Below, in pieces: positions 5,827 through 39,557 of a DNA stretch of 43,264 nt (position 1 is the stretch's first letter; each line of letters begins with the position of its first letter). The DNA is taken from contig JADGQS010000010.1 in assembly GCA_017881585.1 (NCBI GenBank), forward strand, positions 1 to 43,264. The letters are read 5' to 3'. Position numbers and translations under genes: made by a program. Origin of the DNA: Gemmatimonadaceae bacterium. GTDB lineage: Bacteria; Gemmatimonadota; Gemmatimonadetes; Gemmatimonadales; Gemmatimonadaceae. The notes beneath the pieces were generated by a model, which saw nothing but the letters and a program-made list of their open reading frames with translations, was not told the DNA's origin and did no database searches.

Positions 5827-6930
5827 TCAGATCCCCCCGAACGAAATGGAGATCTGCCGGTCGATCGACTCCAGCATCGGCTTCGGAATCGGAAACGCCC
5901 GCGCGAACGCGGCCATCGGATCGCCGTCGAACGCGACGCCGGCGACGCGCAGGTAGAATCGCGCGTAGCCCGCGGCGAGTTCGGGCGACAGGCGCGCGAG
6001 GAGCAGGGCGCCGCCGCGCACGAGCGCGTAGCTGCCGACGACCGTCGCGACGCCGCTCCGCTTTTCCGCCGGCGTCGTGTTGTCCTCGACCGCCGGACCC
6101 GTGAGCGGGCCGACGATCTCGTGCGCGAACGCGTACAGCGCGTCCATCGCGTGGTCGGGCGAATCCGGAAAGCCGACGGCGACCTGGCTGCGCTCGCGGG
6201 TGTCGGTCACGGTGCGCCCCTCGCCCTCGATCGCGAGCGAGAGAATCAGGTCGCCATTCGGCTGCTCGGAATGATTCAGGAAATTCTGCAGCCGGGGGCG
6301 CAGTTCACGCTGCCAGATCGAATCGACGGCCGCGAGCGTGCGTTCTCTGCTCCGCATTTCGTCGACCCACCACCCGTGGAAGAACACGTCCTTCTCGTTC
6401 TGCAGCGCGTTCGTGAATGTCCGCGCGAAGTCGCGGTCGGCCTTCGCCGGAAAGACGCGGGCCAGCATCGAGAAGACCGCGGCGCCTTCCTTCGATTTGG
6501 CCTTCTTTGGATCGCCGTCCGCCTTCACGAACGCATCGATCGTCGCAGCGAGCTCCTCCCACGTCGGGAACGAGAACGCGAGAAACTGCGCGGTCACGAG
6601 CGCCGGGTTCTCGCGCACCCGCTGCGCGAGCGCGCCGAGGTTCACGTCGAAGTCGGTGACCGCGCTCGCCTTCGCGCGAGCCGCGACGAGCGCTTCCCGG
6701 TAGCCATGGCGAAAGAGCGGGACCGCCGACGCGTCGCTGGAGATCATCGCGAAGCCGTGCAGCCAGAGGTCGACGTGCTCGCGCGTCCGGATCGGCCACT
6801 TCACGTTGGTCGAGGCGCCCGGCAGCTGCGCGGCGCACGGCGCCGGGACGCCGCCGAACACGCACAACCAGAGCGCGGTCGCCAGCACCTTGCGACCTCG
6901 CGGCAATCGACGTGGTGATGCGGACTTCAT
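5827..6930 (-). CDS. hypothetical exported protein, 367 aa
   Basis: A basic N-terminus (SPRRLPRGRK), a hydrophobic core (residues about 15-30) and a cleavage site ending CAA before Gln form a Sec signal peptide, so the protein should be periplasmic. The mature part is mostly helical with no metal-binding or catalytic motif I recognise. It contains Trp/Phe-rich stretches (FFHGWWVDEM around residue 185) and ends in SISFGGI. It is translationally close to the following membrane-protein gene and 19 bases downstream of the zinc-ribbon gene. The family is unknown to me, and I do not assign a function. Confidence 0.75.
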   Translation of the reverse strand: MKSASPRRLPRGRKVLATALWLCVFGGVPAPCAAQLPGASTNVKWPIRTREHVDLWLHGFAMISSDASAVPLFRHGYREALVAARAKASAVTDFDVNLGALAQRVRENPALVTAQFLAFSFPTWEELAATIDAFVKADGDPKKAKSKEGAAVFSMLARVFPAKADRDFARTFTNALQNEKDVFFHGWWVDEMRSRERTLAAVDSIWQRELRPRLQNFLNHSEQPNGDLILSLAIEGEGRTVTDTRERSQVAVGFPDSPDHAMDALYAFAHEIVGPLTGPAVEDNTTPAEKRSGVATVVGSYALVRGGALLLARLSPELAAGYARFYLRVAGVAFDGDPMAAFARAFPIPKPMLESIDRQISISFGGI

Positions 6931-6949
6931 GCGCGGGCGTCCGGCTCGT

Positions 6950-7618
6950 TCAGGATGTGGCCAGCCGGCCGCACGCCACGCAGAACTTCCAGCCCGGCTC
7001 GAGTTCGGCGCTGCACGCCGCGCAACGCCGCGCGAGCAGGTTCTGCCCGCAGCTCGGGCAAAAGTGAACCTGCCGGTCCTCCGGAAGCGCCTGGCCGCAG
7101 TAGCGGCAGCCGGGCCGCGACGAGCTCGGCGCGGTCTCCGCCGCGGGATCGAGCGGATGCAGAGGCGCCGCGGCCGACGGGCGCATCGCCTTGGGCGTGG
7201 TGATCGCCTCCGAAAGCGAAGCGGACGCGGCGGGAGTCTCGGCCGGCGCCGGCACCGCGGCAGGCGGCATCGACTCGCCGGCCCTGCGCGCGTGTTCCTG
7301 CGAGATCGTCACGTGCGAGGTGAGATACGCGCGGTAGGCCGCGAGATCCGGATTCGGCGACGACAGTTCCGCGCGCAGGTCGTCTTGCAGCAGGTCGTCG
7401 GCAAAGATGTACCCGCGCTCGCCGGTCAGCAGCCTCGTGAGCGCGTGTGAATAATCGTCGTTGGTTTCCACGGCGCCCTCTGCGCGCACGGAACGATACG
7501 GCACGAGCTCGATCAACTCGGCGACCTCAAATGGACGCGCGAGGAACTCGGGCCGTTTGTCGCGCACGGCGCGCACGAGGCGTTCGAACAGCAGGTCGAG
7601 TGGATCCATCTCCTGCAT
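6950..7618 (-). CDS. zinc-ribbon protein with double CxxC/CxxC modules
   Basis: A 222-residue protein starting at the ATG one base after the RNase HI-like stop (TAAgATG). A second in-frame ATG three codons later is less likely because AGGAG would abut it. The first ~100 residues form a helical domain with DPLDLLFERLVRAVRDKRP at its start, of unknown function. A Pro/Ala-rich linker follows. The C-terminus carries two zinc ribbons: CRYCG with FCPSCG, then CAACS with FCVACG, typical of double-zinc-ribbon (DZR) proteins that mediate protein or nucleic-acid contacts. The long open frame extends upstream, but that part is Arg/Pro-rich and overlaps the RNase gene, so I exclude it. Confidence 0.82.
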   Translation of the reverse strand: MQEMDPLDLLFERLVRAVRDKRPEFLARPFEVAELIELVPYRSVRAEGAVETNDDYSHALTRLLTGERGYIFADDLLQDDLRAELSSPNPDLAAYRAYLTSHVTISQEHARRAGESMPPAAVPAPAETPAASASLSEAITTPKAMRPSAAAPLHPLDPAAETAPSSSRPGCRYCGQALPEDRQVHFCPSCGQNLLARRCAACSAELEPGWKFCVACGRLATS

Positions 7619-7619
7619 C

Positions 7620-8252
7620 TTAACGATCCGTCGACGGCAACGGCGGACTCGCGCGGAACTCGCCGGACTCGGGGAACGGACTGGGATCGGCGTGCCTCGC
7701 GCCCTTCGCGCGGGCTGCCTCGAGCCACGCCTCGAATCCGGAGGCCTCCAGCCCGGCGGAATGCGTCTGGCTGGCGGCGGCACGGGTTGCGAGATGATTG
7801 GCGTATTCGTTCTGCGCGTGGCCGTCGTGCCCGCGCACCCATTTCCACGACACCGTGTGCGGCTCGACGGCATCGATCGCCTCGTGCCAGAGCTCGAGAT
7901 TCTCGATCGCGCCGCCCTTTCGCTTCCATCCCTGCCGCGCCCACGAGTGCACCCACTGCGTCATGCCGTCCACGATGTAGCGCGAATCGGTCGTGAAGGT
8001 CACGCGGCAACGCGCGCCCTTCGCGCCGAGTGCGTCCATCGCCTCGATGACCGATCTAAGGGCCATGCGGTTGTTCGTGGTCGCGCGCTCGCTGATCCAG
8101 AGGTCGCGCCGCACGATCGTGCCGTTCGACGGATGGCGCAGTTCGATGAGTGCGCCGGCGCCGCCCGGATTGTCGCCCTCGCGTCCGTTGCCGATGCACG
8201 ACTCGTCGGCGAATACGGCGACGAAGCAAGACTGTTGCTTCGCGGCGCTCAC
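7620..8252 (-). CDS. RNase HI-like protein with altered catalytic residues
   Basis: RNase H fold protein of 210 residues. The RNase HI landmarks align clearly with E. coli RNase HI: FADESCIGNG (first strand, Asp16), TTNNRM (58-63), TTDSRYI (Asp89), GITQW-like MTQW, and RGHDGH (His142). At two of the four DEDD positions the acid is missing: the residue after NNRM is Ala64 (Glu48 in E. coli) and the last acid is Asn152 (Asp134). A Glu (E17) sits next to the first Asp where the family has Gly. About 45 extra C-terminal residues are low-complexity. The GTG start overlaps the upstream stop (GTGA). It may be a pseudoenzyme, a hybrid-binding protein or an enzyme with a relocated metal ligand. Confidence 0.88.
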   Translation of the reverse strand: MSAAKQQSCFVAVFADESCIGNGREGDNPGGAGALIELRHPSNGTIVRRDLWISERATTNNRMALRSVIEAMDALGAKGARCRVTFTTDSRYIVDGMTQWVHSWARQGWKRKGGAIENLELWHEAIDAVEPHTVSWKWVRGHDGHAQNEYANHLATRAAASQTHSAGLEASGFEAWLEAARAKGARHADPSPFPESGEFRASPPLPSTDR

Positions 8253-11761: not shown

Positions 11762-11785
11762 ACGACAGTCGCTAGAATGTTGCTG

Positions 11786-13093
11786 ATGCCTTTCCGTCCC
11801 CGAATTCGCGCGGCGATGTTGCCGGTTGCGACCGCCGCCTTCGGCGCGCTCGCTCTCGCGTCGTGCGAGGGGAGCGCGTCGCATGTCGACGGTCCGAAGG
11901 GCGCGAGCGCATTCGACAAATTCGTCGTCATCGGCACCGGTCTCTCGATGGGGGCGCAGTCCGGCGGGGTTCTCTACGAGTCGCAGATCGAGGCATGGCC
12001 GGCGCTGCTGGCGCATGCGGCGGGCGCGAACTTCAGGATGCCGTTGCTGCGCGCGCCGGGCTGCGAGCCGCCGCGCATCGCGCCGCTCCAGCTTTCGGTG
12101 TACCTGTCCGGCGTGAGCACGACGGGCATCGATTCGAGCTGCGCGGGCGCGCTCGACACGCTGACGCCACCGGTGAACAGCCTCGCGATTCCCGGCGCGT
12201 CGGCGTACGCGGCGCTCAACCTCACGCCGAAGATCGTGCTGAACTCCGTCGTGCCGTACGGGCCGGGTGACCGTGCGCGCTATCCGCTCGTGCTAGGCTC
12301 GACGCAATCGCAGGTGACGGCGTTGCGCATCGAGGGCGCGTCGTTCGTATCGGTGGAGCTCGGTCTCACCGAAGTGCTCGGCGCCGCGACGAGCGGACTG
12401 CTCGTGGCGGCGACGTCGTACACGCAGGCCGCGCCGTATACGTACGTTCCCGCGCCGGTGTTCGCGCCGGTGTTCAGCGCGATTGCCGACAGCGTGAAGC
12501 TCACGGGAGCCAAGGTGGTGCTGCTGTCGGTGCCGAGGGTGAGCACGCTGTATGCGCTGCGCCCGGCCTCCGAGCTCTGGAACGACCGCACCGATCTCGC
12601 GGCGTTCGGCATCAATGTGATGGCGGATTGCAGCACGAGCGCGAACTTCGTCTTCACCGGCACGCTCGTGCCCTCGCTCGCCGCGAACTACACGACGTCG
12701 GGAACGACGCAGAATCTCTCGTGCACCGACGTGCCGGGCACGGCCGACGCGATTCTCACGCCGGCGGACATCACCACGCTCGACGCCGTGGTGACGCAGA
12801 TGAACGTGCAACTCCAGCAGGTCGCGCAGCAAAACGGATGGGCGTTCGCCGACCTCACGGGCGTGTATCCTCCGCCCGTTTCGACCAGAGCGGCATACAC
12901 GGCGTCGGATCAGCTCGCCTGCGTGTATCCGTATGGCAAGTTCGTCTCGCTCGACGGTGTGTTTCCCAACCTGACCGGCCAGGCGGCGATCGCCTCGACC
13001 GTCGCGAGCGCGATCGATTCGAGGTACGGGTTCTCGATCACGGTCGGCGCATCGTCACCCATCGGTGTCACGGCCGTGCGGCTATGCCCGTAG
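11786..13093 (+). CDS. SGNH-hydrolase-like lipoprotein lacking catalytic Ser and His
   Basis: A 435-residue lipoprotein with a basic N-terminus, a hydrophobic stretch and a lipobox LASC (Cys27), so it should be anchored to a membrane. The mature part begins FDKFVVIGTGLSMGAQSGG, aligned with SGNH block I (G-D-S-L-like), and ends with SLDGVFPNLTGQA, aligned with block V (DGxHP). The nucleophile position is Gly52 and the His position is Phe, so it should not work as a standard GDSL lipase/esterase. The interior is Ser/Thr/Ala-rich with several cysteines. I chose the ATG at 11786 because TAGAAT at 11773-11778 ends 7 bases before it, which fits leaderless initiation; an in-frame ATG at 11777 overlaps that hexamer. 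Confidence 0.8.
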   Translation: MPFRPRIRAAMLPVATAAFGALALASCEGSASHVDGPKGASAFDKFVVIGTGLSMGAQSGGVLYESQIEAWPALLAHAAGANFRMPLLRAPGCEPPRIAPLQLSVYLSGVSTTGIDSSCAGALDTLTPPVNSLAIPGASAYAALNLTPKIVLNSVVPYGPGDRARYPLVLGSTQSQVTALRIEGASFVSVELGLTEVLGAATSGLLVAATSYTQAAPYTYVPAPVFAPVFSAIADSVKLTGAKVVLLSVPRVSTLYALRPASELWNDRTDLAAFGINVMADCSTSANFVFTGTLVPSLAANYTTSGTTQNLSCTDVPGTADAILTPADITTLDAVVTQMNVQLQQVAQQNGWAFADLTGVYPPPVSTRAAYTASDQLACVYPYGKFVSLDGVFPNLTGQAAIASTVASAIDSRYGFSITVGASSPIGVTAVRLCP

Positions 13094-14223: not shown

Positions 14224-15630
14224 CTAGATCGCGTCCGACAGCGAACTGAACGTGAACTCCCGCACCTTGATCGCCGGCATGATCGTCGACCCGCCCGCGC
14301 CGAGCGCTTCCGACGCATTGATGCGCATCGACGGCCCGAGCATCTCGAGATTGTTCAGGAAGAAGATCGGCGATTCGTTGAAGCGGAAATTCTTCACCGG
14401 ATGCGAGATCTTTCCGTTCTCGATGAGATACGTTCCGTCGCGCGTGAGACCCGTGTTTACGAGCGTGCGTGGATCCACGCCGCGGATGTACCAGAAGCGC
14501 GTGACCAGAATTCCGCGCTCGGTGCTCTTGATCATGTCCGAGATCGACGAGGTGCCGCCCATCATGCGGAGCGTGCCGCCGCCGCCGAAGCCTCGCCCGC
14601 CGCCGCCACTCGAGTGCGTCGGCTCCTTCCCCTGCTTCTGCGCCCAGAAGCGGTCGTAGTTCAGGTTCTTCACGACGCCGTTCTCGATCCACACCACGCG
14701 CTCCACCGGCACGCCGTCGCCGTCGTAGCCGCCGCCCGAGCTGGGTGAGTCGGCCGGATCGGAGAGGAGCGTCACGCGCTCGTCCACGACCTTCATCCCG
14801 ATCTTGTTTCCGCCGCCGGGCTTGGAGAAGAACGAGCGTCCCTCGTCCGCCGAGCGTGCCTGCATCGCGCCGCTGATGAGCTGCACGAGATTGCCGACCG
14901 CGGTGTTCTCGAGAATGGTCATGTAACGCCCCGGCTCGACTGCGACCGGATCGCGCGACGTCTTCGCCTTCTCGACGGCCGTCGCCGCGACGTGCTGGGC
15001 GTCGATCTGGTCGAAGGTGTCGCCGTCGCTGCACGCCCACCCCGATCCGCTGCCGTCGGTCGTCCGCACGGTGGCCGTCATCGTCACGCTCGAGCTCGAG
15101 TCGTACGCGAACAGCCCCTTCGAGTTCGCGAGCGCGTTCGCGCCCACGCGGCACTCGATGAATCCCGTCGAAACCAGTCCCGCCGCGCGCGCCATCTCGG
15201 TGACTTTCTTTGCCGCGAGTGACCGCTCGAGCGGGTTCGGCAGCGCGATCACGCGATCCTTCCCCGGCGGATAGACCTGGGGCCCCAGCTCCGGCATCCG
15301 CTCGGGGTTCGGCGGCACGAGCTTCGCGATTTCCGTCGCCTGCTTCGCGGCCGCCGCGAGCGACGCCTCGTCGAGGCGGTTGGTCGTCACGCTCGAGGAG
15401 CGTCCGTCCACGGTCGCGGTGATCGTGACCGAGGTATCGCGATTCTCGCCGGACGTGGTGACCTGGTTCACCGCAAAGCGCGTGTCGGCGCGCGCGGAGC
15501 TGCTGATCGACACGCGCGTCTCGGGCGCCGGCGAGACGGCCAGCGCGCGCTTCGCGATCTCCTCCGCCTCGGCCCGGGTCAGAATCCCCGCGGGAGTGAG
15601 CAGCGATTTTGGTGCGGTGTACGAGCTCAC
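14224..15630 (-). CDS. tldE: TldE/PmbA-like metallopeptidase partner subunit
   Basis: A 468-residue TldD/PmbA family member without the HExxxH motif, corresponding to the non-catalytic TldE subunit. The family core is seen in the N-terminal SSSARADTRFAVNQVTTSGEN and the C-terminal FRFNESPIFFLNNLEMLG. An unusual Ser/Gly-rich loop (GGGGRGFGGGG within about residues 355-375) is inserted before TLRMMGG. The GTG start has a GGAGG ribosome binding site and overlaps the tldD stop (GTGA), so the two are made together. In E. coli TldD/TldE is a cytosolic heterodimer that trims unfolded peptides (microcin B17 leader, CcdA). Unlike its partner here, this subunit shows no export signal. Confidence 0.9.
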   Translation of the reverse strand: MSSYTAPKSLLTPAGILTRAEAEEIAKRALAVSPAPETRVSISSSARADTRFAVNQVTTSGENRDTSVTITATVDGRSSSVTTNRLDEASLAAAAKQATEIAKLVPPNPERMPELGPQVYPPGKDRVIALPNPLERSLAAKKVTEMARAAGLVSTGFIECRVGANALANSKGLFAYDSSSSVTMTATVRTTDGSGSGWACSDGDTFDQIDAQHVAATAVEKAKTSRDPVAVEPGRYMTILENTAVGNLVQLISGAMQARSADEGRSFFSKPGGGNKIGMKVVDERVTLLSDPADSPSSGGGYDGDGVPVERVVWIENGVVKNLNYDRFWAQKQGKEPTHSSGGGGRGFGGGGTLRMMGGTSSISDMIKSTERGILVTRFWYIRGVDPRTLVNTGLTRDGTYLIENGKISHPVKNFRFNESPIFFLNNLEMLGPSMRINASEALGAGGSTIMPAIKVREFTFSSLSDAI

Positions 15631-17252
15631 GCTCTCCTCCCGGTGTTGATGATGTTCACCTGCTTGAAGCGCGCGGGCACGCACCCGTGACTGATGGCGT
15701 TCGACTGGCCGGGCTGGCCCTTCGCGTCGCCGAACGCGCCGCCGAGATGGTACGAGCGCGGACCGCCGATGAGTTCCATGGAGCCCCAGAACTCCGGGGT
15801 CCGGAACTGGTACGCGACGTCCTTGAGCATTCCAACGATCTTGCCGCCCTTGATCTCGTAGAAGCACTGGCCGGCGAACTGACCGTTGTAGCGCTGCTGG
15901 TCGATCGAGAACGAACCGTCGCCGACGATCGCGATGCCCTTGTCGGTCTGCGAGATGATGTCTTCCCACGTGTAATCGTTCTTGCCGGGGAGGAGCGAGA
16001 CGTTCGGCATCCGCTGGAACTGCACGTCGGCCCAGCTCTGCGCGTAGGAGCAGCCATACGAGCGCACGGGCTTGCCGACCTTCTTGTAGTACCACTCGAG
16101 CATCGAGGCCTGCTCTCGCGTGGTCTGGTAGTCGACGAAGATGCCGTCCTTGATGATGTCGAAGCGGATCGGCTTCACGGCCTCGTCGTCCCAGCCGATC
16201 GCGGCGAGCGAACCGGGCTGCTCGCGATCGCCCTGAATGTTCATCACGGTCGAGCCGAACTTGAGCTGGCCGAGCACCTTCTCGGGCGGCGCGACGAAAC
16301 TCGTGCCGGCGTAATTGGCCTCGTAGCCCAGCGCGCGATCGAGTTCCGTGGGATGCGCGACGGTCTCGTGCAGCGTCAGCCAAAGATTCGACGGGTGCAG
16401 CACGAGATCGTACTTCCCCGGGTCGACCGGCTTCGCGGAGAGTTTTTCCACGGCGTCGTTTGCCCAGCGCGTCGCGTTCTCGCCGAGCTTCGCGTTGAGC
16501 ACGTGCTCATAGCCGATCCCCATCGGCGCGACGTCGTTGGAGGCCCGCGACTGGAAATCGGTGCGGTCCTCCGAGACGGCGGTGACCGTCATCGACGGCT
16601 GTGTACGATAGATCGTCTGCACGATGTACGAGCCGTCGCTCGTCATCAGCGTCTTCTCCTCGCGCAGGAAGAACATGCTCGAGGTGACGTTGCGGACCTG
16701 CTTGACCTTCGCGGCTTCCGCGTTGGCGGCGAGGAGCAGGGCGACCTTGTCGACGATCGGGATCGTGAACGGGTCGGTCTGGATCGGGCTCTTCCACTCG
16801 CCCACCTGGTTGCCCGGTGTCGGCGCGAGCACCACCGGATGGAGCTGGCTCGCTCGATTCGCCTTGGCCTGCGTGATCGCCGACTTCGTGATCGACGCGA
16901 CGGCGTCCTTGGTGAGCTGGCTCGTGGCGGCGAAGCCCCACGCGCCGTCCACCAGCGTGCGGACGCCGATGCCGTAGGTGTCGTTGTCGCTCACGCCCTG
17001 CACGATCTTGTCGCGCGTGTTCACGTTCTGCTGGCGTCGCGCGGAAACGCGCACGTCGGCGTACGAGGCGCCGGAACTCTTGGCGACGTCGAGCGCGACC
17101 TGCATCAGTTCGCGTGTGGCGGGGTCGCCGATCGTCGGCGTCGGTCTGGTGGCGGCGAAGATGTCGCCACCGGAGAGGATCCGGGCGCCGACTGCCGTGG
17201 TGGCGGCGACGGCGGCGCTGGTCTTCAGGAATTCGCGGCGTGAATGAGCCAC
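15627..17252 (-). CDS. tldD: TldD-like zinc metallopeptidase with Tat signal
   Basis: A 541-residue TldD with the catalytic zinc motif HETVAH (residues 295-300) followed by the conserved ELDRALGYEANYAGTSF segment, and the C-terminal GGPRSYHLGGAFGDAKGQP. The chosen GTG start puts SRREFLKTSA at residues 4-13, a twin-arginine signal (RRxFLK) with a hydrophobic Ala-rich core. The peptidase is therefore predicted to be exported folded, possibly with TldE as a passenger. Longer starts would extend into the divergent DinB promoter. The pair forms a two-gene operon. The substrate is unknown; no modified-peptide precursor gene is visible nearby. Confidence 0.92.
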   Translation of the reverse strand: MAHSRREFLKTSAAVAATTAVGARILSGGDIFAATRPTPTIGDPATRELMQVALDVAKSSGASYADVRVSARRQQNVNTRDKIVQGVSDNDTYGIGVRTLVDGAWGFAATSQLTKDAVASITKSAITQAKANRASQLHPVVLAPTPGNQVGEWKSPIQTDPFTIPIVDKVALLLAANAEAAKVKQVRNVTSSMFFLREEKTLMTSDGSYIVQTIYRTQPSMTVTAVSEDRTDFQSRASNDVAPMGIGYEHVLNAKLGENATRWANDAVEKLSAKPVDPGKYDLVLHPSNLWLTLHETVAHPTELDRALGYEANYAGTSFVAPPEKVLGQLKFGSTVMNIQGDREQPGSLAAIGWDDEAVKPIRFDIIKDGIFVDYQTTREQASMLEWYYKKVGKPVRSYGCSYAQSWADVQFQRMPNVSLLPGKNDYTWEDIISQTDKGIAIVGDGSFSIDQQRYNGQFAGQCFYEIKGGKIVGMLKDVAYQFRTPEFWGSMELIGGPRSYHLGGAFGDAKGQPGQSNAISHGCVPARFKQVNIINTGRRA

Positions 17253-17328
17253 TGGCGGTTCCGGGTGATGAGAGTGAAAGTATCGTGAGAAGATACGTCG
17301 CTCACTCCCTGCTTGTTGAGGTCTTTCC
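17253..17328. promoter_or_regulatory. divergent tldD/DinB promoter region with nested inverted repeat
   Basis: Seventy-six bases separate two divergent starts. They contain an outer repeat GAGTGA (17272-17277) with TCACTC (17302-17307) and an inner GTATC (17280-17284) with GATAC (17292-17296). This could be an operator or cruciform serving both genes; no known box is recognised. Confidence 0.35.
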
Positions 17329-17847
17329 ATGCTCAGCCGTCCCAATGCCGACGAATATTTCGAGTATTACGGCAAGTACATCGCGCTCGTGCCGGATGGT
17401 GACGTTCGCGACCATCTGCGCACCCAGCTCTTCGAGACCGTCGCGCTGCTCGAGGGGGTGACTGATGCCAAGGCGGAGAAGGCGTACGGCGCGGGGAAGT
17501 GGACACTGAAGGAAGCGGTGCTGCACATGTCGGATACCGAGCGGGTGTTCGGCTACCGCATGCTTCGCATCGCGCGCGGGGATGCGACGCCGCTGCCGGG
17601 GTTCGAGCAGGACGAGTGGGTCCCGCATTCGTGCGCGAACACGCGCGCGATGACCAACCTGGTGATGGAGTTCGCCGCCGTGCGCGCGGCGACGATTGCT
17701 CTGGTGGATTCGCTGTCAGCCGAGGCGTGGGTGCGGAAGGGAACCGCGAGCGGGCACACCATCTCGGCGCGGGCCCTCGCATATATCGCGGCGGGGCACG
17801 AGCGGCATCATCTCAACATCATTCGAGAGAGGTACCTCACTTCTTAA
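17329..17847 (+). CDS. DinB-like (DinB/YfiT superfamily) protein
   Basis: A 172-residue four-helix-bundle protein. Metal-binding histidines of the DinB superfamily are present: LHMSDTE (His about residue 66) and GHERHHLNII (HExxH-spaced pair near residue 155). The N-terminal YYGKYIALVPDGDV and KWTLKEAVLHMSDTERVF pattern is typical of DUF664/DinB_2 members. Members include thiol-transfer enzymes (mycothiol or bacillithiol S-transferases) and proteins of unknown function, so the reaction is not assignable. It is followed by a bidirectional terminator and is monocistronic. Confidence 0.88.
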   Translation: MLSRPNADEYFEYYGKYIALVPDGDVRDHLRTQLFETVALLEGVTDAKAEKAYGAGKWTLKEAVLHMSDTERVFGYRMLRIARGDATPLPGFEQDEWVPHSCANTRAMTNLVMEFAAVRAATIALVDSLSAEAWVRKGTASGHTISARALAYIAAGHERHHLNIIRERYLTS

Positions 17848-19438: not shown

Positions 19439-20068
19439 ATGCGAATTCATAGACTGCTGGCGTTCCTGTCGGTTGCGGCGCTCGCGCCGCTCTCGCGCGG
19501 CGGAGCGCAAACCTGTCAGGGAACCGCCCAGTTCCGGGAGGGGAAGGCACGCCTTGACGTCGACTACCAGCGCTCCGACGACCTCGAGTACTATCGCGCC
19601 GGCGTCGCGTACGGCGTCCAGGGCTCGTTCTTCGGCGGTGTGAGCGTCGACGAAACGCAGCTGAGGCACGGCGGCGCGTCGATTACCGGATTCGGCGGCA
19701 GCCTCGGCTACCAGTTTCACTGGGTCGACACACCCTTCCAAGTGTGTCCGCTCGTGAGCGTGAACTACACGTCCGGCAATGGCGCGAACATCACGTCGGT
19801 GGGGTTCGGCGGGAGTCTGGGGTATCGCATAGAGGTGCAGCCCGGCTTCGATCTCGTCCCGGCGGCGGGCATCCGCTGGATGTCGAACAGCACATCCTCC
19901 AGCGGGAGCAGCTCCAGCGTCGGGAGCATCTCCAGCAGCGAACTCTTCATGGACTTCGGCATGGTGTTCCACCGGGTCTGGTCGGTGGTGCCCGGCGTCC
20001 TCTTTCCATCCCCGGCGAGCGCGAAGACGAGATGGACGTTCGGTCTCGCGTACAACTGGGGTACCTAG
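19439..20068 (+). CDS. putative outer-membrane beta-barrel protein
   Basis: A Sec signal peptide (MRIHRLLAFLSVAALAPLSRGGA, cleavage before Gln24) is followed by about 185 residues of alternating short strands with aromatic girdles, e.g. YYRAGVAYGVQGSFFGGVSV, GFGGSLGYQFHWVD, VGFGGSLGYRIEVQPGFDL and a C-terminal TFGLAYNWGT. An internal GFGGSLGY element occurs twice (about residues 81 and 122), suggesting a strand-hairpin duplication. A Ser-rich loop (SSSGSSSSVGSISSS, about 151-166) would be surface-exposed. The small 8-strand OmpA/OmpX-like barrel is inferred from pattern only. A GGAGAG ribosome binding site precedes the ATG. Confidence 0.72.
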   Translation: MRIHRLLAFLSVAALAPLSRGGAQTCQGTAQFREGKARLDVDYQRSDDLEYYRAGVAYGVQGSFFGGVSVDETQLRHGGASITGFGGSLGYQFHWVDTPFQVCPLVSVNYTSGNGANITSVGFGGSLGYRIEVQPGFDLVPAAGIRWMSNSTSSSGSSSSVGSISSSELFMDFGMVFHRVWSVVPGVLFPSPASAKTRWTFGLAYNWGT

Positions 20069-26275: not shown

Positions 26276-28588
26276 ATGAAACTCCTCCAATTCCTCGCAC
26301 TCGCCGCGGCGCTCACCACCCCGCTGTCCGCGCAGAAAGCCCCGGTTCCCACGCCGGCCTCGATCCTCGGCTACGACCCCGGCGCCGACCGAAAGCTCCC
26401 GTCGTGGAAACAGATCACCGACTACTTCCACGCGGTCGAGAAGGCGAGCCCGCGCGTGCAGGTGCACACGCTCGGCCAGACGACATTGGGCCGGCCGTTC
26501 CTCGCGGTGTTCATCTCCGATTCCGCGACGCTCAAGCACCTCGATCGCTATCAGATGATCCAGCGCAAGCTCATGAACCCGCGTCTCCGCGGGAAGGATG
26601 AGCTCGAGTCGCTGCTCGCGGCGGGGAAGAACATCATCCTGATCACGTCGGCCATTCACTCGACGGAATCGGGCGGATTCACGACGCCGCTCGTGCTCAC
26701 CGACCGCCTCGCGCGCGGCGACACGCCGGAGGCGCGTGCGATCCTCGCGAACACCATCGTCATTCTCGTGCCGTCGCAGAATCCCGACGGCGTCGACATC
26801 GTCGGCGACTGGTATCGCTCGACGCTCGGCACGAAGGCCGAGGGAGCGTCGCCGCCCGAGCTCTATCACCACTACGTGGGGCATGACGACAACCGCGACT
26901 GGTACGCGTTCACGCAGCCCGAGACGCGCTACACCGTGGATTCGCTCTACACGCCGTGGGATCCGGAAATCGTCAACGACATCCACCAGCAGGGATCGAA
27001 CGCGGGACGCATCTTCCTTCCGCCGTACATGGACCCGCTGGATCCGAATATCGATCCGATTCTCACCGCGGGAACCAACTCGATGGGAATGGCGATCGGG
27101 TGGCGCATGATCGGCGAGGGGAAGACCGGAATCGCGTACAACGCGGCGTACGACGAGTGGTCGCCCGCGCGCCAGTATTCGCTCTATCATCGCGGCGTGC
27201 GGATCCTCACCGAGACGGCCAGTGCGGCGCTCGCGACGCCGATCGACATTCCGTTCAATTCGCTCGGAGCGGCACGCGGCTACGAGGCCAAGACCGTCAC
27301 GTGGAATTTCCCGGCGCTCTGGCCCGGCGGCCACTGGAGCTACGGCGACATCGTCGCGTATCAGGTGAGCGCCAGCTGGGCGATGCTCAGCCAAGCCGCT
27401 CGCGATCGCCGCGTATGGCTCGAGAGTTACGCCGCCCTCGGCGAGCGCGCGCTCGCGCCTGATCATCCGTGGACGCACGACAGCGTGCCGGCGGCGTTCG
27501 TGATTCCGCGCGCGCAGCGCGACACGCAGGCCGTGCAGCGCCTGGTCTGGACGCTGCAGCATGGGCAGGTGGAAGTGCGGTCGAGCACCACGCCGGTGAG
27601 CGCGAACGGCACGACGTATCCCGCCGGATCGTACGTCGTGCTCACGTCGCAGCCGATGGGCGGCTACGCGAAGTCCGTGCTCGAGCGGCAGAAGTACCCG
27701 AACCTGCACGAATATCCGGGCGGGCCGCCGATCCGGCCGTACGACGTCACCGCGCAGACGCTGCCGCTGCTGTTCGGAGTGGAGATCGCGAGCGTCGCCG
27801 CGGCGCCGGTGGCGAGCGCGGCGCCCATCATCCCCATGGAGGAACCGAAGTTCAGCGTGCCGGGGTTCAGCGACCGCAGCGCGCGGCGCGTGGCGATCTA
27901 TCGCAGCTACAGCGCACCCATGGACGAAGGGTGGACGCGCTGGATGTTCGACGTGAACCGTGTTCCGTTCACGTCGATCGTCGACAAGGAGGTGCGCGCG
28001 GGAAATCTCAACGCGCGATTCGACGTGATCATCCTCCCGGACCAGAACGCGGGGCAGATGACGCGCGGCGTCTCACAAAACTATCCCGACTCGTTGCAGG
28101 GCGGACTTGGCACCGCGGGCGCCGCGGCACTCGCGTCGTTCGTCGAGAACGGCGGCACGCTGCTCGCGTTCAACGAGGCGAGCAACTACGCCATCGAGGC
28201 GCTGAAGCTGCCCGTGAAGAACGTGCTTGCCGGCGTGCGCAACACGGATTTCTACGCGCCGGGCTCGATCCTCGCGGTCGAGATCAAGCGCGATTCCCCG
28301 ATCGCCGCGAGGATGACCGCGCCGGTTCCGGCGGTCTGGTTCGAGAACGGGCCGGCGTTCGAGATCACGGATCCCGCGCGGGCCACCGCCGTCGCCACCT
28401 ATCCGGCGACCGGCGATGTGCTGCTCTCAGGCTGGCTGCTCGGCGGCTCGAAGCTCAGCGGCAAGGCCGCGCTCGTCGACGTCACCGTGGGCAGGGGACA
28501 CGCGGTGCTCTACGGATTCCGGCCGCAGTATCGCGGGCAGTCGATGGCGACGCAGCCGCTGATCTGGGGAGCGATCAGCAGGCCATAG
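26276..28588 (+). CDS. exported M14-family zinc carboxypeptidase
   Basis: Signal peptide 1-19 (LLQFLALAAALTTPLSA, Gln at +1), then an M14 catalytic domain. Zinc ligands are His128 and Glu131 (IHSTES) and His237 (NDIHQQG), and the catalytic Glu is probably Glu313 (RILTETASA). The C-terminal half (residues about 400-770) contains a large extra domain with a glutamine-amidotransferase-like beta/alpha pattern (RFDVIILPDQN, FVENGGTLLAFNEAS), as in long M14-like proteins. Predicted location is periplasm or outside the cell, with peptide or murein-peptide hydrolysis. The ATG follows the hairpin; it may be cotranscribed with gyrA or independent. Confidence 0.9.
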   Translation: MKLLQFLALAAALTTPLSAQKAPVPTPASILGYDPGADRKLPSWKQITDYFHAVEKASPRVQVHTLGQTTLGRPFLAVFISDSATLKHLDRYQMIQRKLMNPRLRGKDELESLLAAGKNIILITSAIHSTESGGFTTPLVLTDRLARGDTPEARAILANTIVILVPSQNPDGVDIVGDWYRSTLGTKAEGASPPELYHHYVGHDDNRDWYAFTQPETRYTVDSLYTPWDPEIVNDIHQQGSNAGRIFLPPYMDPLDPNIDPILTAGTNSMGMAIGWRMIGEGKTGIAYNAAYDEWSPARQYSLYHRGVRILTETASAALATPIDIPFNSLGAARGYEAKTVTWNFPALWPGGHWSYGDIVAYQVSASWAMLSQAARDRRVWLESYAALGERALAPDHPWTHDSVPAAFVIPRAQRDTQAVQRLVWTLQHGQVEVRSSTTPVSANGTTYPAGSYVVLTSQPMGGYAKSVLERQKYPNLHEYPGGPPIRPYDVTAQTLPLLFGVEIASVAAAPVASAAPIIPMEEPKFSVPGFSDRSARRVAIYRSYSAPMDEGWTRWMFDVNRVPFTSIVDKEVRAGNLNARFDVIILPDQNAGQMTRGVSQNYPDSLQGGLGTAGAAALASFVENGGTLLAFNEASNYAIEALKLPVKNVLAGVRNTDFYAPGSILAVEIKRDSPIAARMTAPVPAVWFENGPAFEITDPARATAVATYPATGDVLLSGWLLGGSKLSGKAALVDVTVGRGHAVLYGFRPQYRGQSMATQPLIWGAISRP

Positions 28589-29284: not shown

Positions 29285-29845
29285 ATGACACGACGTTTCT
29301 TCCTGATTCTGTTCTGCATCATCGCCGCCGGCGCGCAGGCATCGGCACAGTCGAAGACGACCGTCGTCATCCTCGTTCGTCACGCGGAGAAAGCGACGGC
29401 GCCCGCCGCCGACCCGCCGCTCACCGAGGCCGGCGTCGCCCGGGCGAGGGCGCTCGCCACGGCGCTCGCGGACGCGAACGTGCAGGCGGTGATCACGACG
29501 GAGCTCATTCGCACACGCGAGACGGCACGGCCGCTCGCCGACGCGCTGGGCCTGCCCCTCGAGACCGTGCATACCGGAACGGGCGACGTGCACCCGAGAG
29601 CCGTGGCCGACGCGGTGCGCGCGCACGCCGGCCAGACAGTGCTCATCGTGGGACACAGCAATACGATCCCGTTGATCATCGCGGCCCTGGGCGGTCCGAA
29701 GTTCACGGACATCTGCGACACGCAGTATTCGAACCTGTTCGTGCTGATCGTGAGATCGAACGACCAGAAAGCCGATCTCATCGTCTCCTCGTACGGCGCG
29801 CCCTCGCCCGATCCCGCGACGACGTGCCCGAACTCGATGAAGTGA
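29285..29845 (+). CDS. exported histidine-phosphatase superfamily protein
   Basis: A 186-residue member of the phosphoglycerate mutase-like branch. After a signal peptide (RRFFLILFCIIAAGAQASA, Gln at +1) comes the phosphohistidine motif LVRHAEK, the ELIRTRETARPLADALG segment and the second catalytic His in VGHSNTIP. It therefore probably hydrolyses a phosphomonoester in the periplasm; SixA-like protein phosphatase or small-molecule phosphatase cannot be distinguished. Two extra cysteines (DICDTQ and TTCPN) near the C-terminus could form a disulfide, consistent with export. Confidence 0.88.
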   Translation: MTRRFFLILFCIIAAGAQASAQSKTTVVILVRHAEKATAPAADPPLTEAGVARARALATALADANVQAVITTELIRTRETARPLADALGLPLETVHTGTGDVHPRAVADAVRAHAGQTVLIVGHSNTIPLIIAALGGPKFTDICDTQYSNLFVLIVRSNDQKADLIVSSYGAPSPDPATTCPNSMK

Positions 29846-33627: not shown

Positions 33628-35295
33628 ATGCGCCTCACCCTCGTGCTGGCAATTGTTCTCGTTGTCGCGCCGCTCGGCGCGCAACAGGCCGCGTTTCACG
33701 TCGCCAACTACGACCTGACGCTCGACCTTCCCGAAACGGGAAAGACCATCGAGGGCAGGGCGGATCTGACCGTCGTGCGGAGCGTCCGCGCCGACCCGGC
33801 GGAACTGATCATCGTGCGCAGCGCGCGCGCCGACACCCTCGTCCTGGACCTGCTCGATCTCAAGGTGAAGCGCGTGTGGCTCGCCGGAAAGGAAACCGGC
33901 TTCACGCAGGACGCCGCGCACGTGCGCATCTTCGTCGGCGGCGTGCGCGACGACACGCTGCGAGTGAGACTGGACTACGCCGGCGCCGTGACGGACGGCC
34001 TGATCATCGGCACCGACGGCGCGGGCCGCTGGATGGCCTTCGGCGACAACTGGCCGAACCGCGCTCGCCACTGGATCCCGTCGATCGACCACCCGAGCGA
34101 CAAGGCGACGGTCACGTGGAGCGTGCGCGCGCCCTCGGACCGGAAGGTGATCGCGAACGGCACGCTGCTCGAGGAGACCGCGATCCCGCTCGCGCCCGAT
34201 CCCGACGGCTCGTCCGGGCGCGGCGTGCAGCGCACACTCACGCGCTGGCGCGAATCGCATCCGATTCCCGCGTATCTCATGACGATCGCCGCGGCGCCGC
34301 TCGTGCGGTACGACCTCGGCAACTCCGCATGCGGCTTCGCGCGTGACGGCGGATGCGTGAACCAGATGGTGTACGTCGCGCCCGAGCAGCTGTCGTCGAT
34401 GCCCGGCGATTTCAGGTACGCGGGCGACATCGTCGACTTCTTCTCGCACCTGGTCGCGCCATTTCCGTACGAGAAGCTCGCGCACCTGCAGAGCAGCACG
34501 CGATTCGGCGGGATGGAGAACGCGAGCGCGATCTTCTACGCCGACGGCGGCTTCAGGAAAGGCGGCACGCATTCCTCGACGATCGCGCACGAGACCGCGC
34601 ACCAGTGGTTCGGCGATGCCGTCACCGAACGCGAATGGAGCCACCTCTGGCTCTCCGAGGGATTCGCGACGTATTTCGAGGAACTGTGGACCGCGCACGC
34701 GTTCGGCGACAGCGCGTTCGAGCGAGAGATGGCCGGCACCCGCGCGCAGCTGTTGCGCGATCCGGTCGTCGCCGCGCGGCCGGTCATCGACAGCATGCAA
34801 ACGGAGCTGATGCAGCTGCTCGACGCGAACAGCTACCAGAAAGGCGGCTGGACTCTGCACATGCTCCGGTCGCTCGTCGGCGACAGCGCGTTCTTTCGCG
34901 GGATTCGCGACTACTACGCCGCGCACGTGGACGGCAACGCCTCGAGCGACGATCTCATGGCCGCCGTCGAGAGTCGCGCGGGGATGAAACTTGGCTGGTT
35001 CTTCGATCAGTGGCTCCGGCGTCCCGGATATGCGTCGCTCACCACGAACTGGCGATATGACGCGGCGTCGCATCGCGTGGTGCTCGACGTCGAGCAGGAC
35101 CCACGTTTTGCAGCATACCGTTTCCCCCTTTTAATAGACGTGACCGATGCCACCGGTGCCGTGCATCGCGTGCGTGTGGAGATCGGAGCGGAGCGGTCGA
35201 CACGCGTGACGCTCCCGCTGGAGCTCGCCGCGCCGCCGCGCGCGCTCGCATTCGATCCCGCCGTGGAACTGCTGGCGGAGTTCCACGTCCGGTGA
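33628..35295 (+). CDS. exported M1-family metallo-aminopeptidase
   Basis: Signal peptide 1-18 (LTLVLAIVLVVAPLGA, Gln at +1). The substrate-exopeptidase motif GGMEN is at 294-298, the zinc motif HETAH at 321-325 and the third ligand Glu344 (LSEGFATY). It removes N-terminal residues from peptides in the periplasm or outside. The 555 residues are short for M1 because the C-terminal helical domain is reduced, as in other bacterial short forms. TACATT (33616-33621) ends 6 bases before the ATG and no ribosome binding site is seen, suggesting a leaderless message. The stop overlaps the next GTG. Confidence 0.94.
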   Translation: MRLTLVLAIVLVVAPLGAQQAAFHVANYDLTLDLPETGKTIEGRADLTVVRSVRADPAELIIVRSARADTLVLDLLDLKVKRVWLAGKETGFTQDAAHVRIFVGGVRDDTLRVRLDYAGAVTDGLIIGTDGAGRWMAFGDNWPNRARHWIPSIDHPSDKATVTWSVRAPSDRKVIANGTLLEETAIPLAPDPDGSSGRGVQRTLTRWRESHPIPAYLMTIAAAPLVRYDLGNSACGFARDGGCVNQMVYVAPEQLSSMPGDFRYAGDIVDFFSHLVAPFPYEKLAHLQSSTRFGGMENASAIFYADGGFRKGGTHSSTIAHETAHQWFGDAVTEREWSHLWLSEGFATYFEELWTAHAFGDSAFEREMAGTRAQLLRDPVVAARPVIDSMQTELMQLLDANSYQKGGWTLHMLRSLVGDSAFFRGIRDYYAAHVDGNASSDDLMAAVESRAGMKLGWFFDQWLRRPGYASLTTNWRYDAASHRVVLDVEQDPRFAAYRFPLLIDVTDATGAVHRVRVEIGAERSTRVTLPLELAAPPRALAFDPAVELLAEFHVR

Positions 35296-36236
35296 ACGTC
35301 AGGGCGTGGCTCGTCGGCGGCACGTGTCTCGCGCTCCTCTGCGGTGCTGGTCTCGGGGCGCAGGCCGCTCGCGCGAGCGCTGCATCCGCGGCCGACGTCG
35401 CGATCGCTCAGGGCCGCCTCGACGACGCCGAGCAGGCGCTCTTCGCCGCGAGCGCGCGAGCCTCGCACGACCCGTCGGCACGCGGCGCGCTCGGAATGTT
35501 TCTCGCGTCGCGTGGCCGCCTGAAGGTGGGCGCCGTGCTGCTCGAGGAAGCTCGCCAGTTCGGTGGGGACGCCTCGGTGATCGACGCCCGTCTCGCGCGG
35601 ATCTATGCCTGGCTCGGCGACTGGGCGGCCGTCGCGGCACTGAAGCACTATGTGGCCTCTGGTCCTGAGCAGGATCGAACGAGATGGCTCGCGGCCCACG
35701 CACCCGAGCACGATGGCGCGGACTCGGTGATGATCGTGCTCGAACCCAATGAGGTGGCCGGCCTCGGGCGTATCGAACTCACGATCGGCCGTGCGACGAT
35801 GCAAGCCGACATCAATCCGAACGTCGAAGGACTCGTGCTCCCCTCGAGTCCAGAGGTGTCCGGCGAGTCGCAACAGTTCGGCATGCACGACAGCGCCTCG
35901 GTGGCTGTGGTCTACCGTGTTGCAATCGGCGGAGTGCGCCTCACCAACGTGCCCGCCAGACTCTCCCCGGGCGTGCGGCCCGCCATCGGCCTCGACGTGC
36001 TCGCCGCGCTCACGCCCACGTTCGACGCGGGCGCGCACTTGCTGACGCTGCGCCAACGCGCCATCGCGCCGTCGGGAGATCCCTTACCGATTCTGCTCTC
36101 GTTTCCGGGGATAAAGTTCGTGGCTCGCGCCGGACAGCCGCCGGTCGCGATGGAGAGCGCCGCCGGACGTGCCGCGTTGCGCGGCACGCGCTGGACGTTC
36201 GACGTCCGGCATGGCGCGATCGTGACGATGCGCTAG
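35292..36236 (+). CDS. exported retropepsin-like protein, probably inactive, with TPR-like N-terminus
   Basis: A 314-residue exported protein (signal to about residue 23, Gln at +1) made in coupling with the M1 peptidase (GTGA overlap). Residues 30-130 form helix-turn-helix repeats with TPR-like spacing. The C-terminal part (about 140-260) follows the bacterial aspartyl-protease-like (retropepsin) pattern: VMIVLEPNEVAGLGRIELTIGR, then a closing IGLDVLAALTPTFDAGAHLLTL that matches the family's GLDxL...D...L.L end. The catalytic D-T/S-G is not intact: the aligned segment reads ADINPNVEG. It could be a non-proteolytic binding partner. The assignment rests on pattern, not on a search. Confidence 0.68.
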   Translation: MNVRAWLVGGTCLALLCGAGLGAQAARASAASAADVAIAQGRLDDAEQALFAASARASHDPSARGALGMFLASRGRLKVGAVLLEEARQFGGDASVIDARLARIYAWLGDWAAVAALKHYVASGPEQDRTRWLAAHAPEHDGADSVMIVLEPNEVAGLGRIELTIGRATMQADINPNVEGLVLPSSPEVSGESQQFGMHDSASVAVVYRVAIGGVRLTNVPARLSPGVRPAIGLDVLAALTPTFDAGAHLLTLRQRAIAPSGDPLPILLSFPGIKFVARAGQPPVAMESAAGRAALRGTRWTFDVRHGAIVTMR

Positions 36237-37518: not shown

Positions 37519-37530
37519 GTGCGGTCGAAG

Positions 37531-37623: not shown

Positions 37624-38508
37624 ATGAAACTCTCGATTCGTCTGACCACACTCGCGATCACAGCGGTTGCGCTCGCCGGAGCCCTCGGCGCGCAGCAGCG
37701 CCCAAACGCCCATGTCGGCGCACGCTCGCAGCCGGCGCGCAGTCAGGCCGACAATCGTGCGCGCTCGGCCGTTCGCCCGCAGCAGTACGCGTCGTCGCGC
37801 GCCGATGTTCGCGGCGGCGGTGGCTATGCTTCGCGTCCGGATAATCGGGGCGGCAACGTCTCGCAGCCGCGCAACGATCCTCGCGCCGGCAACGGCTATG
37901 CCGCGCGTCCCGATATTCGCGGCGGCAACGGAAACGCCGCGCGTCCAGATACACGCGGCGGCAACGGCTATCAGCCTCGGAACGATCCGCGTGGCGGGAA
38001 CGGCTACGCCTCGCGTCCTGATGTTCGCGGCGGCAATGGGAACGCCGCGCGTCCCGATACTCGCGGCGGCAATGGTTATTCTCCGCGACCCGATGTTCGC
38101 AGTGGCAACGGATATCAGCCGCGCAACGATCCCCGCGCTCGCAATGATTTCCAGGGCGGCGACCGTCGTAATCCGGTGGCCGGGAATGGCCGTCCGCTGA
38201 TCACGAGAGGCGGCGTGTACCGCGGCGCGTACGGCGGTGCGTACGGCGGTCAGCGCATCTGGCGCGAGTCCAGGTTCGGCGGCAGCGGCTTCTACTTCCG
38301 CAGCGGCCTGCCGTTCGGCTGGGAGAGCCGCATCATGTTGAACGGGTACTTCCCGGTGTCGTACGGCGGCTATTGCGACGCAGTTCCTGTCGACTATGAA
38401 TATCTGCTTCCACCGATGCTGCCGTCGTACGACCCATGCTTCTTCGGCGATCGCGTAGTGGTGTTCGACCGCTTCTCGCGCTCGATCGTCTTCGTCGCCG
38501 CGCTTTGA
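37624..38508 (+). CDS. exported Arg/Gly/Asn repeat protein, 294 aa
   Basis: I know no family for this. The signal peptide is residues 1-21 (SIRLTTLAITAVALAGALGA, Gln at +1). A Gln/Arg-rich stretch is followed by ten consecutive 12-residue repeats (residues 60-179) of form [PN]DxRGGNGxxxR, then a Gly/Tyr-rich segment (VYRGAYGGAYGGQR) and a compact C-terminal domain with three cysteines and Tyr/Pro-rich loops (YCDAVPVDYEYLLPPMLPSYDPCF). It is strongly basic in the repeats and disordered-looking, similar in composition to RGG proteins but exported. Possible roles are binding polyanions (eDNA, LPS, capsule) or a matrix component. GGGAGG lies upstream of the ATG. Confidence 0.8.
   Translation: MKLSIRLTTLAITAVALAGALGAQQRPNAHVGARSQPARSQADNRARSAVRPQQYASSRADVRGGGGYASRPDNRGGNVSQPRNDPRAGNGYAARPDIRGGNGNAARPDTRGGNGYQPRNDPRGGNGYASRPDVRGGNGNAARPDTRGGNGYSPRPDVRSGNGYQPRNDPRARNDFQGGDRRNPVAGNGRPLITRGGVYRGAYGGAYGGQRIWRESRFGGSGFYFRSGLPFGWESRIMLNGYFPVSYGGYCDAVPVDYEYLLPPMLPSYDPCFFGDRVVVFDRFSRSIVFVAAL
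37801..38160 (+). repeat. ten in-frame 36-bp repeats (12-residue units)
   Basis: Exactly ten 36-base units without gaps or indels, each encoding a 12-residue unit. Units 3-5 and 6-8 form a higher-order 108-bp duplication (NDPR-PDxR-PDTR order). Exact length conservation with synonymous differences indicates selection on the protein and recent amplification. Confidence 0.93.
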
Positions 38509-38536
38509 TCTAGTTCGCAGTCCTGATTGCGCAGGA

Positions 38537-38580
38537 GCGCCGCCCCAGCATTTTTAGCTGGGGCGGCGCCTTGGTTTTTT
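38537..38580 (+). terminator. strong intrinsic terminator
   Basis: A 13-bp perfect GC-rich stem (38537-38549 with 38557-38569) with an AT loop, followed by CTTGGTTTTTT. It ends the repeat-protein gene. Confidence 0.95.
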
Positions 38581-38621
38581 GGATGCCGCAGGCGGTGGAC
38601 GCAGGACAACCACAGGATCTC

Positions 38622-39557
38622 ATGAATCGATCGATCTCACGTTCGCTCCGTGCCGCCATTGCCGCCGCGCTCTTCCTTCCGGTGGCCGCCTCAGTTGCAC
38701 GCGCGCAGGGCGCGCCAGTGAAACACACTGTCACCGCCGACGGTCATCCGCTCGCGGTGTGGGAAAAGCGAGCGCCGAAGCCGAAGGGCGCGATCCTGCT
38801 GCTCCATGGCCGCACTTGGAGCACGCTCCCGGATTTCGACCTCCAGGTGCCCGGCGAGCACCGCTCGCTCATGGATGCACTCGTCGCGCGCGGCTATTCC
38901 GTGTACGGCCTCGACCTGCGCGGATACGGCGCGACGCCGCGCGATGCGAGCGACTGGGACACTGCCGACCGTTCCGTCGATGATCTCTCCGCGGCGCTCG
39001 CTTGGGTCGCGAAAAACTCGGGCGCACCGGGAAAGCCTGCGCTGCTCGGCTGGTCGAACGGCTCCTTGGTCTCGGCGCTCTTCGCGCAACGCCACGCCGA
39101 CCAGATCTCGGCGCTCATCCTCACGGGATATCCCAAGCATCCCGACTCGACGATCGTCACCGTTCCCGACACCGCGAAGCCGGCCCACGCGAAGACCACG
39201 GAGAAGGCCGCCGCGAGCGACTTCATCGCGCCAGGCGCGATTTCCAAGAAGGCCGTCGATGTGTACGTGGCCGCCGCACTCAAGGCCGATCCGGTGCGCA
39301 CCGACTGGCATCACCTGGAGCAGTGGAACGCGATCGACCCGAAGAAGGTGATGGTTCCAACGCTGCTAATCCAGGGCGAGCTCGATCCGATCGCTCCGAC
39401 CGCGACGCAGGCCGCATTCTTCTCGAGGCTCGGCACTGCGGACCGGCAGTGGGTCGTGATGGCCGGTGGCGATCACGCGTCGCTCATGGAGAACCTGCAG
39501 CCCGCGTTCGTGGCGGCGATGATCAACTTCATCGAGCGACCGGTCTGGCATCGCTGA
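38622..39557 (+). CDS. exported alpha/beta-hydrolase
   Basis: A 311-residue alpha/beta-hydrolase with a signal peptide (ISRSLRAAIAAALFLPVAASVARA, Gln at +1). Motifs: oxyanion LLLHGRTW, nucleophile elbow GWSNGSL (Ser about residue 154), Asp in GELDPIAP and His in GGDHASL, so the triad is complete. Esterase, lipase or other hydrolase acting outside the cytoplasm; no lid or specific family signature is obvious. The start at 38622 is chosen because it opens the signal peptide and has AGGA just upstream; more upstream in-frame ATGs overlap the terminator. Confidence 0.88.
   Translation: MNRSISRSLRAAIAAALFLPVAASVARAQGAPVKHTVTADGHPLAVWEKRAPKPKGAILLLHGRTWSTLPDFDLQVPGEHRSLMDALVARGYSVYGLDLRGYGATPRDASDWDTADRSVDDLSAALAWVAKNSGAPGKPALLGWSNGSLVSALFAQRHADQISALILTGYPKHPDSTIVTVPDTAKPAHAKTTEKAAASDFIAPGAISKKAVDVYVAAALKADPVRTDWHHLEQWNAIDPKKVMVPTLLIQGELDPIAPTATQAAFFSRLGTADRQWVVMAGGDHASLMENLQPAFVAAMINFIERPVWHR

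Follow-up and report, generated by a model that had tools for sequence, protein, structure and literature searches.

A Q-rule, in which signal peptidase I leaves glutamine (Gln) as the first residue of the mature protein (position +1) and a glutaminyl cyclase (QC) closes this Gln to pyroglutamate, probably operates (we put its probability at about 0.8) in a Gemmatimonadaceae bacterium and in the sampled families of its class, much as in Bacteroidetes. The starting point is a stretch of 43,264 nucleotides from this bacterium (GenBank assembly GCA_017881585.1, contig JADGQS010000010.1, positions 1 to 43,264 of the forward strand), which we refer to as the window; the comparison covers a further sample of the same genome and 298 genomes of its phylum, the Gemmatimonadota, and is conducted entirely at the level of sequence and of predicted structure. 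Judged by predicted cuts, most of the signal peptidase I substrates sampled from this genome carry Gln at +1.

The Q-rule has been called specific to Bacteroidetes and not common to the whole Fibrobacteres-Chlorobi-Bacteroidetes (FCB) group (PMC5837995, PMC10653852); we consider it quite probable, from the sequences compared here, that the rule extends to a second phylum, contrary to this published exclusivity. The original prediction, which was made from the window, had cited the rule as described for Bacteroidetes and proposed its extension within the FCB group: the extension to a second phylum is supported; sharing across the group is denied in both papers. Their main texts contain no word beginning with Gemmatimonad, and the titles and abstract openings returned by a literature search hold no report of the Q-rule or of pyroglutamate N-termini in Gemmatimonadota.

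In the proposed mechanism, signal peptidase I would cut many, probably most, Sec precursors directly ahead of Gln, each of these cuts being predicted; a QC anchored in the envelope as a lipoprotein would then close the Gln to pyroglutamate, as its family membership, active-site residues and lipobox suggest. The QC would be of type II in the genus of the window and of type I, which is unrelated to it, in many of the sister lineages, and the capped N-terminus would resist the organism's own exported aminopeptidases, one of which is encoded in the window.

Gln at position +1 in the genome and the phylum

Signal peptides have been located with a home-made scorer with hand-set weights, which considers the charge of the n-region, the hydrophobic stretch, residues -3 to -1 and how far the cut lies from that stretch, while +1 and everything beyond carry zero weight; we call counts at its best-scoring site "blind", and counts of Gln after any site scoring no more than 2 units below the best one "any-site". 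Of seven E. coli sites used as a test, the scorer has placed six correctly and called no site for Bla; the end of the hydrophobic stretch can shift with downstream polar residues, with charged ones more than with Gln. The filters for lipoproteins and membrane anchors, which were tightened after inspection of the rows, drop Cys sites and anchors and are blind to Gln. The counts come from this scorer and not from SignalP, and are not directly comparable with published figures: Gln at +1 is probably undercounted here, because the 41 Bacteroidota/Balneolota loci that served as the positive group give 21/56 blind (26/56 any-site), against the mean Gln share of 71% given for Bacteroidetes with SignalP (PMC5837995).

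The sample of the genome outside the window consists of 20 stretches (317 kb, 216 genes called), 16 of them picked around M28 peptidase genes, and holds 37 signals that are neither lipoprotein signals nor anchors. Gln occupies the blind +1 in 20 of the 37 and an any-site +1 in 27, compared with 8/44 and 11/44 in the pooled controls, which were run with the same script on 200 kb each (Fisher p = 0.001 and 2e-5, respectively): E. coli K-12 (2/14 blind, 2 any-site), S. meliloti pSymB (2/13, 2 any-site) and the C. metallidurans megaplasmid (4/17, 7 any-site). At positions +2 to +10 of the sampled proteins, Gln averages 4.5%. Without its nine M28 proteins, the blind count is still 16/28, and at score thresholds of 7, 9 and 10 it is 20/42, 17/32 and 11/21. 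The predicted excess of Gln at +1 is thus also found beyond the window, in this 317 kb sample of the genome.

Across ten genomes of the phylum, with the window excluded, Gln is found at the blind +1 of 58/128 signals, a share just below half (p = 0.0012 against the controls), and at an any-site +1 of 83/128 (p = 7e-6). The blind counts of the single genomes include 15/32 in the congener G057, 6/7 in G058, 3/6 in each of G158 and G075, 6/21 in G039 (13 any-site), 2/5 in G125, 2/7 in G161 and 0/2 in G034.

The exported proteins of the window

Eight proteins of the window show Gln directly after a permitted Ala site, as had been claimed for them; the sites (the slash marks the predicted cut) and the Gln codons, six of them CAG and two CAA, are as follows:

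5827-6930, minus strand: exported protein, 367 residues, no Pfam match; CAA/Q, Gln codon CAG at 6826-6828.
19439-20068, plus strand: exported protein, 209 residues, with a weak Pfam match below the cut-off to outer-membrane beta-barrel families; GGA/Q, CAA at 19508-19510.
26276-28588, plus strand: exported protein of the zinc carboxypeptidase family (M14), 770 residues; LSA/Q, CAG at 26333-26335.
29285-29845, plus strand: exported protein of the histidine phosphatase superfamily, 186 residues; ASA/Q, CAG at 29348-29350.
33628-35295, plus strand: exported M1-family aminopeptidase-like protein, 555 residues; LGA/Q, CAA at 33682-33684.
35292-36236, plus strand: exported protein, 314 residues, with a weak TPR match below the Pfam cut-off; LGA/Q by eye, CAG at 35361-35363.
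37624-38508, plus strand: exported low-complexity protein, 294 residues; LGA/Q, CAG at 37693-37695.
38622-39557, plus strand: exported alpha/beta hydrolase (Hydrolase_4, S33-like), 311 residues; ARA/Q, CAG at 38706-38708.

Pfam assigns four of the eight (M14, histidine phosphatase, M1 and alpha/beta hydrolase) and gives weak or no matches for the remaining four; the M1 protein is the secreted aminopeptidase that the original prediction had placed in the window. For seven of the eight, the blind scorer cuts ahead of Gln; for the protein at 35292, it prefers AQA/A, located two residues downstream, and ranks LGA/Q more than 2 units lower.

Two further export signals of the window had been omitted from the eight: a lipoprotein-like signal, ALASC, with Cys at +1, as expected (11777-13093, plus strand), and a Tat-like signal, RREFLK, whose probable mature start is not Gln (15627-17345, minus strand). 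From the latter, substrates of the twin-arginine (Tat) pathway may lie outside the Q-rule.

Relatives of the M14 and M1 proteins of the window have been sought in 46 genomes spread over the families of the phylum. The M14 protein has a match in 41 of them (42-72% identical); 26 loci were read, one without a complete frame and one, lipoprotein-like, without a scored signal, which leaves 24. Gln follows the signal in 23/24 by eye, the exception being lipoprotein-like, and in 15/24 blind. The spacing from this Gln to a conserved P-x-P motif varies from 1 to about 18 residues, and Gln therefore tracks the cut through insertions and deletions, rather than the mature protein.

The glutaminyl cyclases of the phylum

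The original prediction had called for a glutaminyl cyclase gene to be looked for, and a 60-codon 5' piece of one has been found in the genome itself, together with a type II QC in 11 of 11 sampled congeners. The QC had seemed to be missing because contig C44 (18275 bases) ends inside its gene. The type I QC profile (PF05096) has no match in this genome, nor has the full type II QC profile at 1e-12, and the 66-residue type II profile gives five weak, short matches (best E 1e-4). The end of the gene was revealed by aligning the QC region of the congener G173 to the genome: the last 182 bases of the contig (G000:C44:18094-18275, locus L335) encode the first 60 residues, with a lipobox, VTAC, and 75% identity over 59 residues to the QC of the congener G027; the remainder of the gene is not seen. 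The 3.1 Mb genome also contains 21 places of the M28 family (20 above the cut-off), several with export signals; 19 of them were read (the exceptions are L007 and L008). The most QC-like of those tested, L009:8920-10272, has been rejected as the QC, its nearest relatives being leucyl aminopeptidases (8e-16), with QC matched only weakly (8e-6).

Type II QCs have been searched for with two profiles, one of 66 residues, built from bacteroidal QCs, and one built from 15 full QCs of the phylum, which share the active-site residues and an invariant lipobox Cys. The short profile matches 207 of the 298 genomes; after the removal of nine weak rows and the addition of two partial genes, type II is counted in 200. 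The full-profile search covered 64 of the 90 genomes that had no first-pass match, and the status of the other 26 comes from the short profile. Type I is counted in 101 genomes (106 before five weak rows were dropped). Both types occur in 29 genomes, type II only in 171, type I only in 72 and neither in 26, where the genome of the window is counted despite its QC piece; 272 of the 298 genomes thus have at least one type. If the two types were independent, 64.8 genomes with neither would be expected (odds ratio 0.061, Fisher p = 8e-24, the genomes themselves not being independent of one another). Over the 244 genomes for which the distribution by family was drawn up (families f3, f10 and f11 are absent from this set, as are many genomes of f2), type-I-only and type II genomes occur side by side in families f1, f2, f4, f5 and f6, as well as in genera g7, g38, g70 and g104; in f2, f4 and f6, the type-I-only state is that of one genome each, and the f2 genome is in 990 contigs.

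The 46 type II loci that were read provide 36 distinct proteins (seven are duplicates and three lack a full frame). By motif, the HWD, the zinc-binding Asp, the bacteroidal Asp ligand, the second Asp and the zinc-binding His are found in 36/36; the full set of zinc ligands Asp/Asp(Glu)/His, general base Glu and second Asp is likewise found in 36/36. A lipobox occurs in 32, the other four having a cleavable-type signal; among the 14 type II QCs of named Gemmatimonadota records, the lipobox occurs in 11 and the zinc-Asp motif in 12. Against the PDB, the full profile matches the QC chains of T. forsythia (6qro, 8e-95) and P. gingivalis (6qql, 1e-90), and the aminopeptidase YwaD at 2e-23. For a QC of the same family (genome G237), the AlphaFold model (pLDDT 91) matches solved bacteroidal QCs first (P. 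gingivalis QC, TM 0.85, 36% identity), and the 50 Foldseek matches listed are all QCs or bacteroidal entries likened to QC in PMC7948796. On profile and model, the fold of the type II proteins is closer to QC than to aminopeptidase, and their role as cyclases is predicted.

The type I proteins of the phylum are matched over the whole domain: one of them matches the Zymomonas QC (3nol) at 3e-67, and all 11 distinct proteins carry the motifs with Q/E24, E69, N155 and K225, as well as a lipobox, four of which were judged by eye. From its lipobox, the QC of either type is predicted to be an envelope lipoprotein.

In the tree, the phylum's type II QCs group as one clade (95/90; the bootstrap is not settled and the root is not known), with branching that follows taxonomy; for this reason, type II looks ancestral: the phylum's ancestor probably had it, and type I probably took its place on several occasions. 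Over 140 residues, QCs of genomes from the window's family and order show no difference from those of records named Gemmatimonadetes, Gemmatimonadota and Gemmatimonadaceae, which agrees with the placement of the window in Gemmatimonadota by the original prediction.

The neighbourhood of the type II QC gene is conserved in six loci (L310-L313, L315 and L321), where the QC lies between proteins that we describe by size: one of about 2040 (or about 550) residues on one flank, and a run of about 390, 390-650 and 398 residues on the other. The neighbours show no clear link to export. The gene caller overlooked the QC itself in L316 and L317.

Comparison with known systems

The system resembles the Q-rule of Bacteroidetes (Bochtler et al. 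2018, PMC5837995; Szczesniak et al. 2023, PMC10653852) in the presence of Gln at +1 on many or most Sec/signal peptidase I substrates, and in one of two unrelated QCs per genome, with both less often, both being mostly lipoproteins; these papers count 574 Bacteroidetes species with the animal-type QC, 507 with the plant-type and 63 with both. It differs in that it is located in another phylum, partly in metagenomic genomes, and is known from sequence alone, in that Gln stays in genomes with neither QC, and in that the type II QCs cluster in a separate clade. The type II QCs of P. gingivalis, T. forsythia and B. thetaiotaomicron (6qql, 6qro, 7d1d) share with those of the phylum the fold, the HWDxRP motif, the lipobox and the zinc ligands, including the bacteroidal Asp, at 33-36% identity to the model; about half of the phylum's proteins, including those of the window's genus, have another residue, often His, in place of the Trp of the WHT motif. 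The type I QCs of PF05096 (3nol, 3mbr, 2faw) share the whole domain and its motifs; in the phylum, they are preceded by a lipobox and stand in for type II in part of the genomes.

Evidence against the rule and alternative explanations

Several findings weigh against a Q-rule in this phylum. Gln is found in genomes that have neither QC, mostly of families f5 and f7: the count, drawn from stretches and M28 loci, is 7/20 blind and 10/20 any-site, or 4/9 and 6/9 for the M28 proteins alone. Neither type was found in G034, G125, G161 and 19 others of f2, f5, f7 and f9; the three such genomes sampled by stretches are 90-95% complete and in 1 to 30 contigs. As a clean, Gln-free negative, these genomes have failed, and the tie of Gln to the enzyme is therefore not strict; a third cyclase, spontaneous closure, or a peptidase that holds Gln in place may account for the residue there. 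The converse is also found: G013 has a type II QC and a blind count of 1/5, and, at threshold 7, Gln is absent from the blind +1 in a QC-bearing Glassbacteria record of the same phylum (0/4; over 140 residues, its QC is the same as one from a genome assigned to the phylum) and, with few signals, in QC-bearing Poribacteria (0/6) and Zixibacteria (0/4); these loci (L084, L087, L114, L122, L128 and L150) together give 0/14. The M1 protein of the window has matches in 30 of the 46 genomes; of 30 loci, the 27 with a scored signal have Gln in 4 blind and in about 13 by eye, several starting with Asp and some being lipoproteins; many of these relatives are probably paralogues. The gene visible in the window's own genome is partial. 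The Trp before the zinc-binding His, said to occur in all type II QCs (PMC7948796), is found in 19/36 type II proteins and in 8/14 of those from named records; the window's genus has HHT and similar in place of WHT, and L040, L312 and other QCs of family f1 have His or another residue. Animal QCs match the full profile at about 1e-23, no closer than the aminopeptidases, and among the controls C. metallidurans (4/17 blind, 7/17 any-site) has a milder preference for Gln outside the phylum. The main reasons why we rate the Q-rule no higher are the Gln in genomes with neither QC and its lack in the QC-bearing Glassbacteria, Poribacteria and Zixibacteria.

In an alternative account, Gln reflects a preference of the phylum's signal peptidase I, or of translocation, with cyclisation absent or incidental. 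The 7/20 in genomes with neither QC, the mild share of Gln in the controls (8/44) and the published cyclisation of Gln without an enzyme speak for this account, which we nevertheless regard as unlikely: it does not predict a QC in 272 of 298 genomes, the mutual replacement of two unrelated QCs, or the lipoboxes on both kinds. That the excess is an artefact, produced by biased recognition of cut sites, by high G+C or by shared descent of few proteins, appears very improbable to us. The first sites were indeed chosen by eye, the scorer is a home-made one with hand-set weights, and most of the stretches of the own genome were picked around M28 genes; against this, +1 is unscored and Gln stays at about 4.5% at +2 to +10 of these proteins, the two high-G+C controls give 6/30 when pooled, the excess persists without the M28 proteins and at all three thresholds, and the M14 relatives retain Gln despite insertions and deletions.

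The M28-fold proteins called type II QCs could instead be aminopeptidases, so that only the type I lineages would cyclise. QCs and aminopeptidases are described as sharing fold and residues, so that the residues do not by themselves reveal the activity; about half of the proteins lack the binding Trp, and the NCBIfam matches, to aminopeptidase and DapE, are weak and fall far short of the cut-off. Profile and structure are far closer to the proven bacteroidal QCs, however, HWD and the bacteroidal Asp ligand are found in 36/36, and the M28-fold proteins alternate with the type I QC; this alternative is, in our estimate, quite unlikely, and we retain the Q-rule, served by two kinds of cyclase, as the reading that best describes the phylum.

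The possible purpose of the capped N-terminus

Gemmatimonadota are chiefly free-living, and for this reason capping might be a means of self-protection, rather than a defence against a host. Host aminopeptidases have been named as the possible reason for the rule, which leaves the need for the enzyme in culture unexplained, and capping against the cell's own exported aminopeptidases has been proposed for P. gingivalis. Capping might be an old trait, common to Bacteroidetes and Gemmatimonadota and perhaps to more of the FCB group, which has been kept through swaps of the cyclase, guards against the cell's own envelope peptidases and not a host, and is served by a third cyclase in the lineages with neither QC. 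This is a tentative proposal, on balance doubtful; the 0/14 in Poribacteria, Zixibacteria and Glassbacteria speaks against its FCB-wide form.

A second phylum with the rule, and a chiefly free-living one, would allow its purpose to be tested without a host: the repeated swaps of the cyclase would be natural replicates, and the genomes with neither QC would be either natural knock-outs or the homes of a third enzyme. Proteomics of the phylum should routinely search for pyroglutamate at mature N-termini.

Occurrence in other phyla

The best 80 type II QC matches listed include records from Glassbacteria, Poribacteria, Calditrichota, KSB1, Ignavibacteria, Kryptonia, Zixibacteria, Fibrobacterota, Eisenbacteria and Balneolota, together with two Armatimonadetes/Armatimonadota records and one from Acidobacteriota; type I was found in 1 of the 17 named genomes searched (KSB1). 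In single loci, scored blind at threshold 7, Gln occurs at +1 in 0/1 signals of Fibrobacterota, 0/1 of Eisenbacteria, 0/3 in further loci of no named phylum, 2/7 in Calditrichota/KSB1, 2/6 in Ignavibacteria/Kryptonia, 1/5 in Armatimonadota and 1/1 in Acidobacteriota. For Ignavibacterium album, a Gln share of 77% is given in PMC5837995, and the PDB contains QCs of Fimbriiglobus ruber and of an Acidobacteriales bacterium (7d1b, 7d18).

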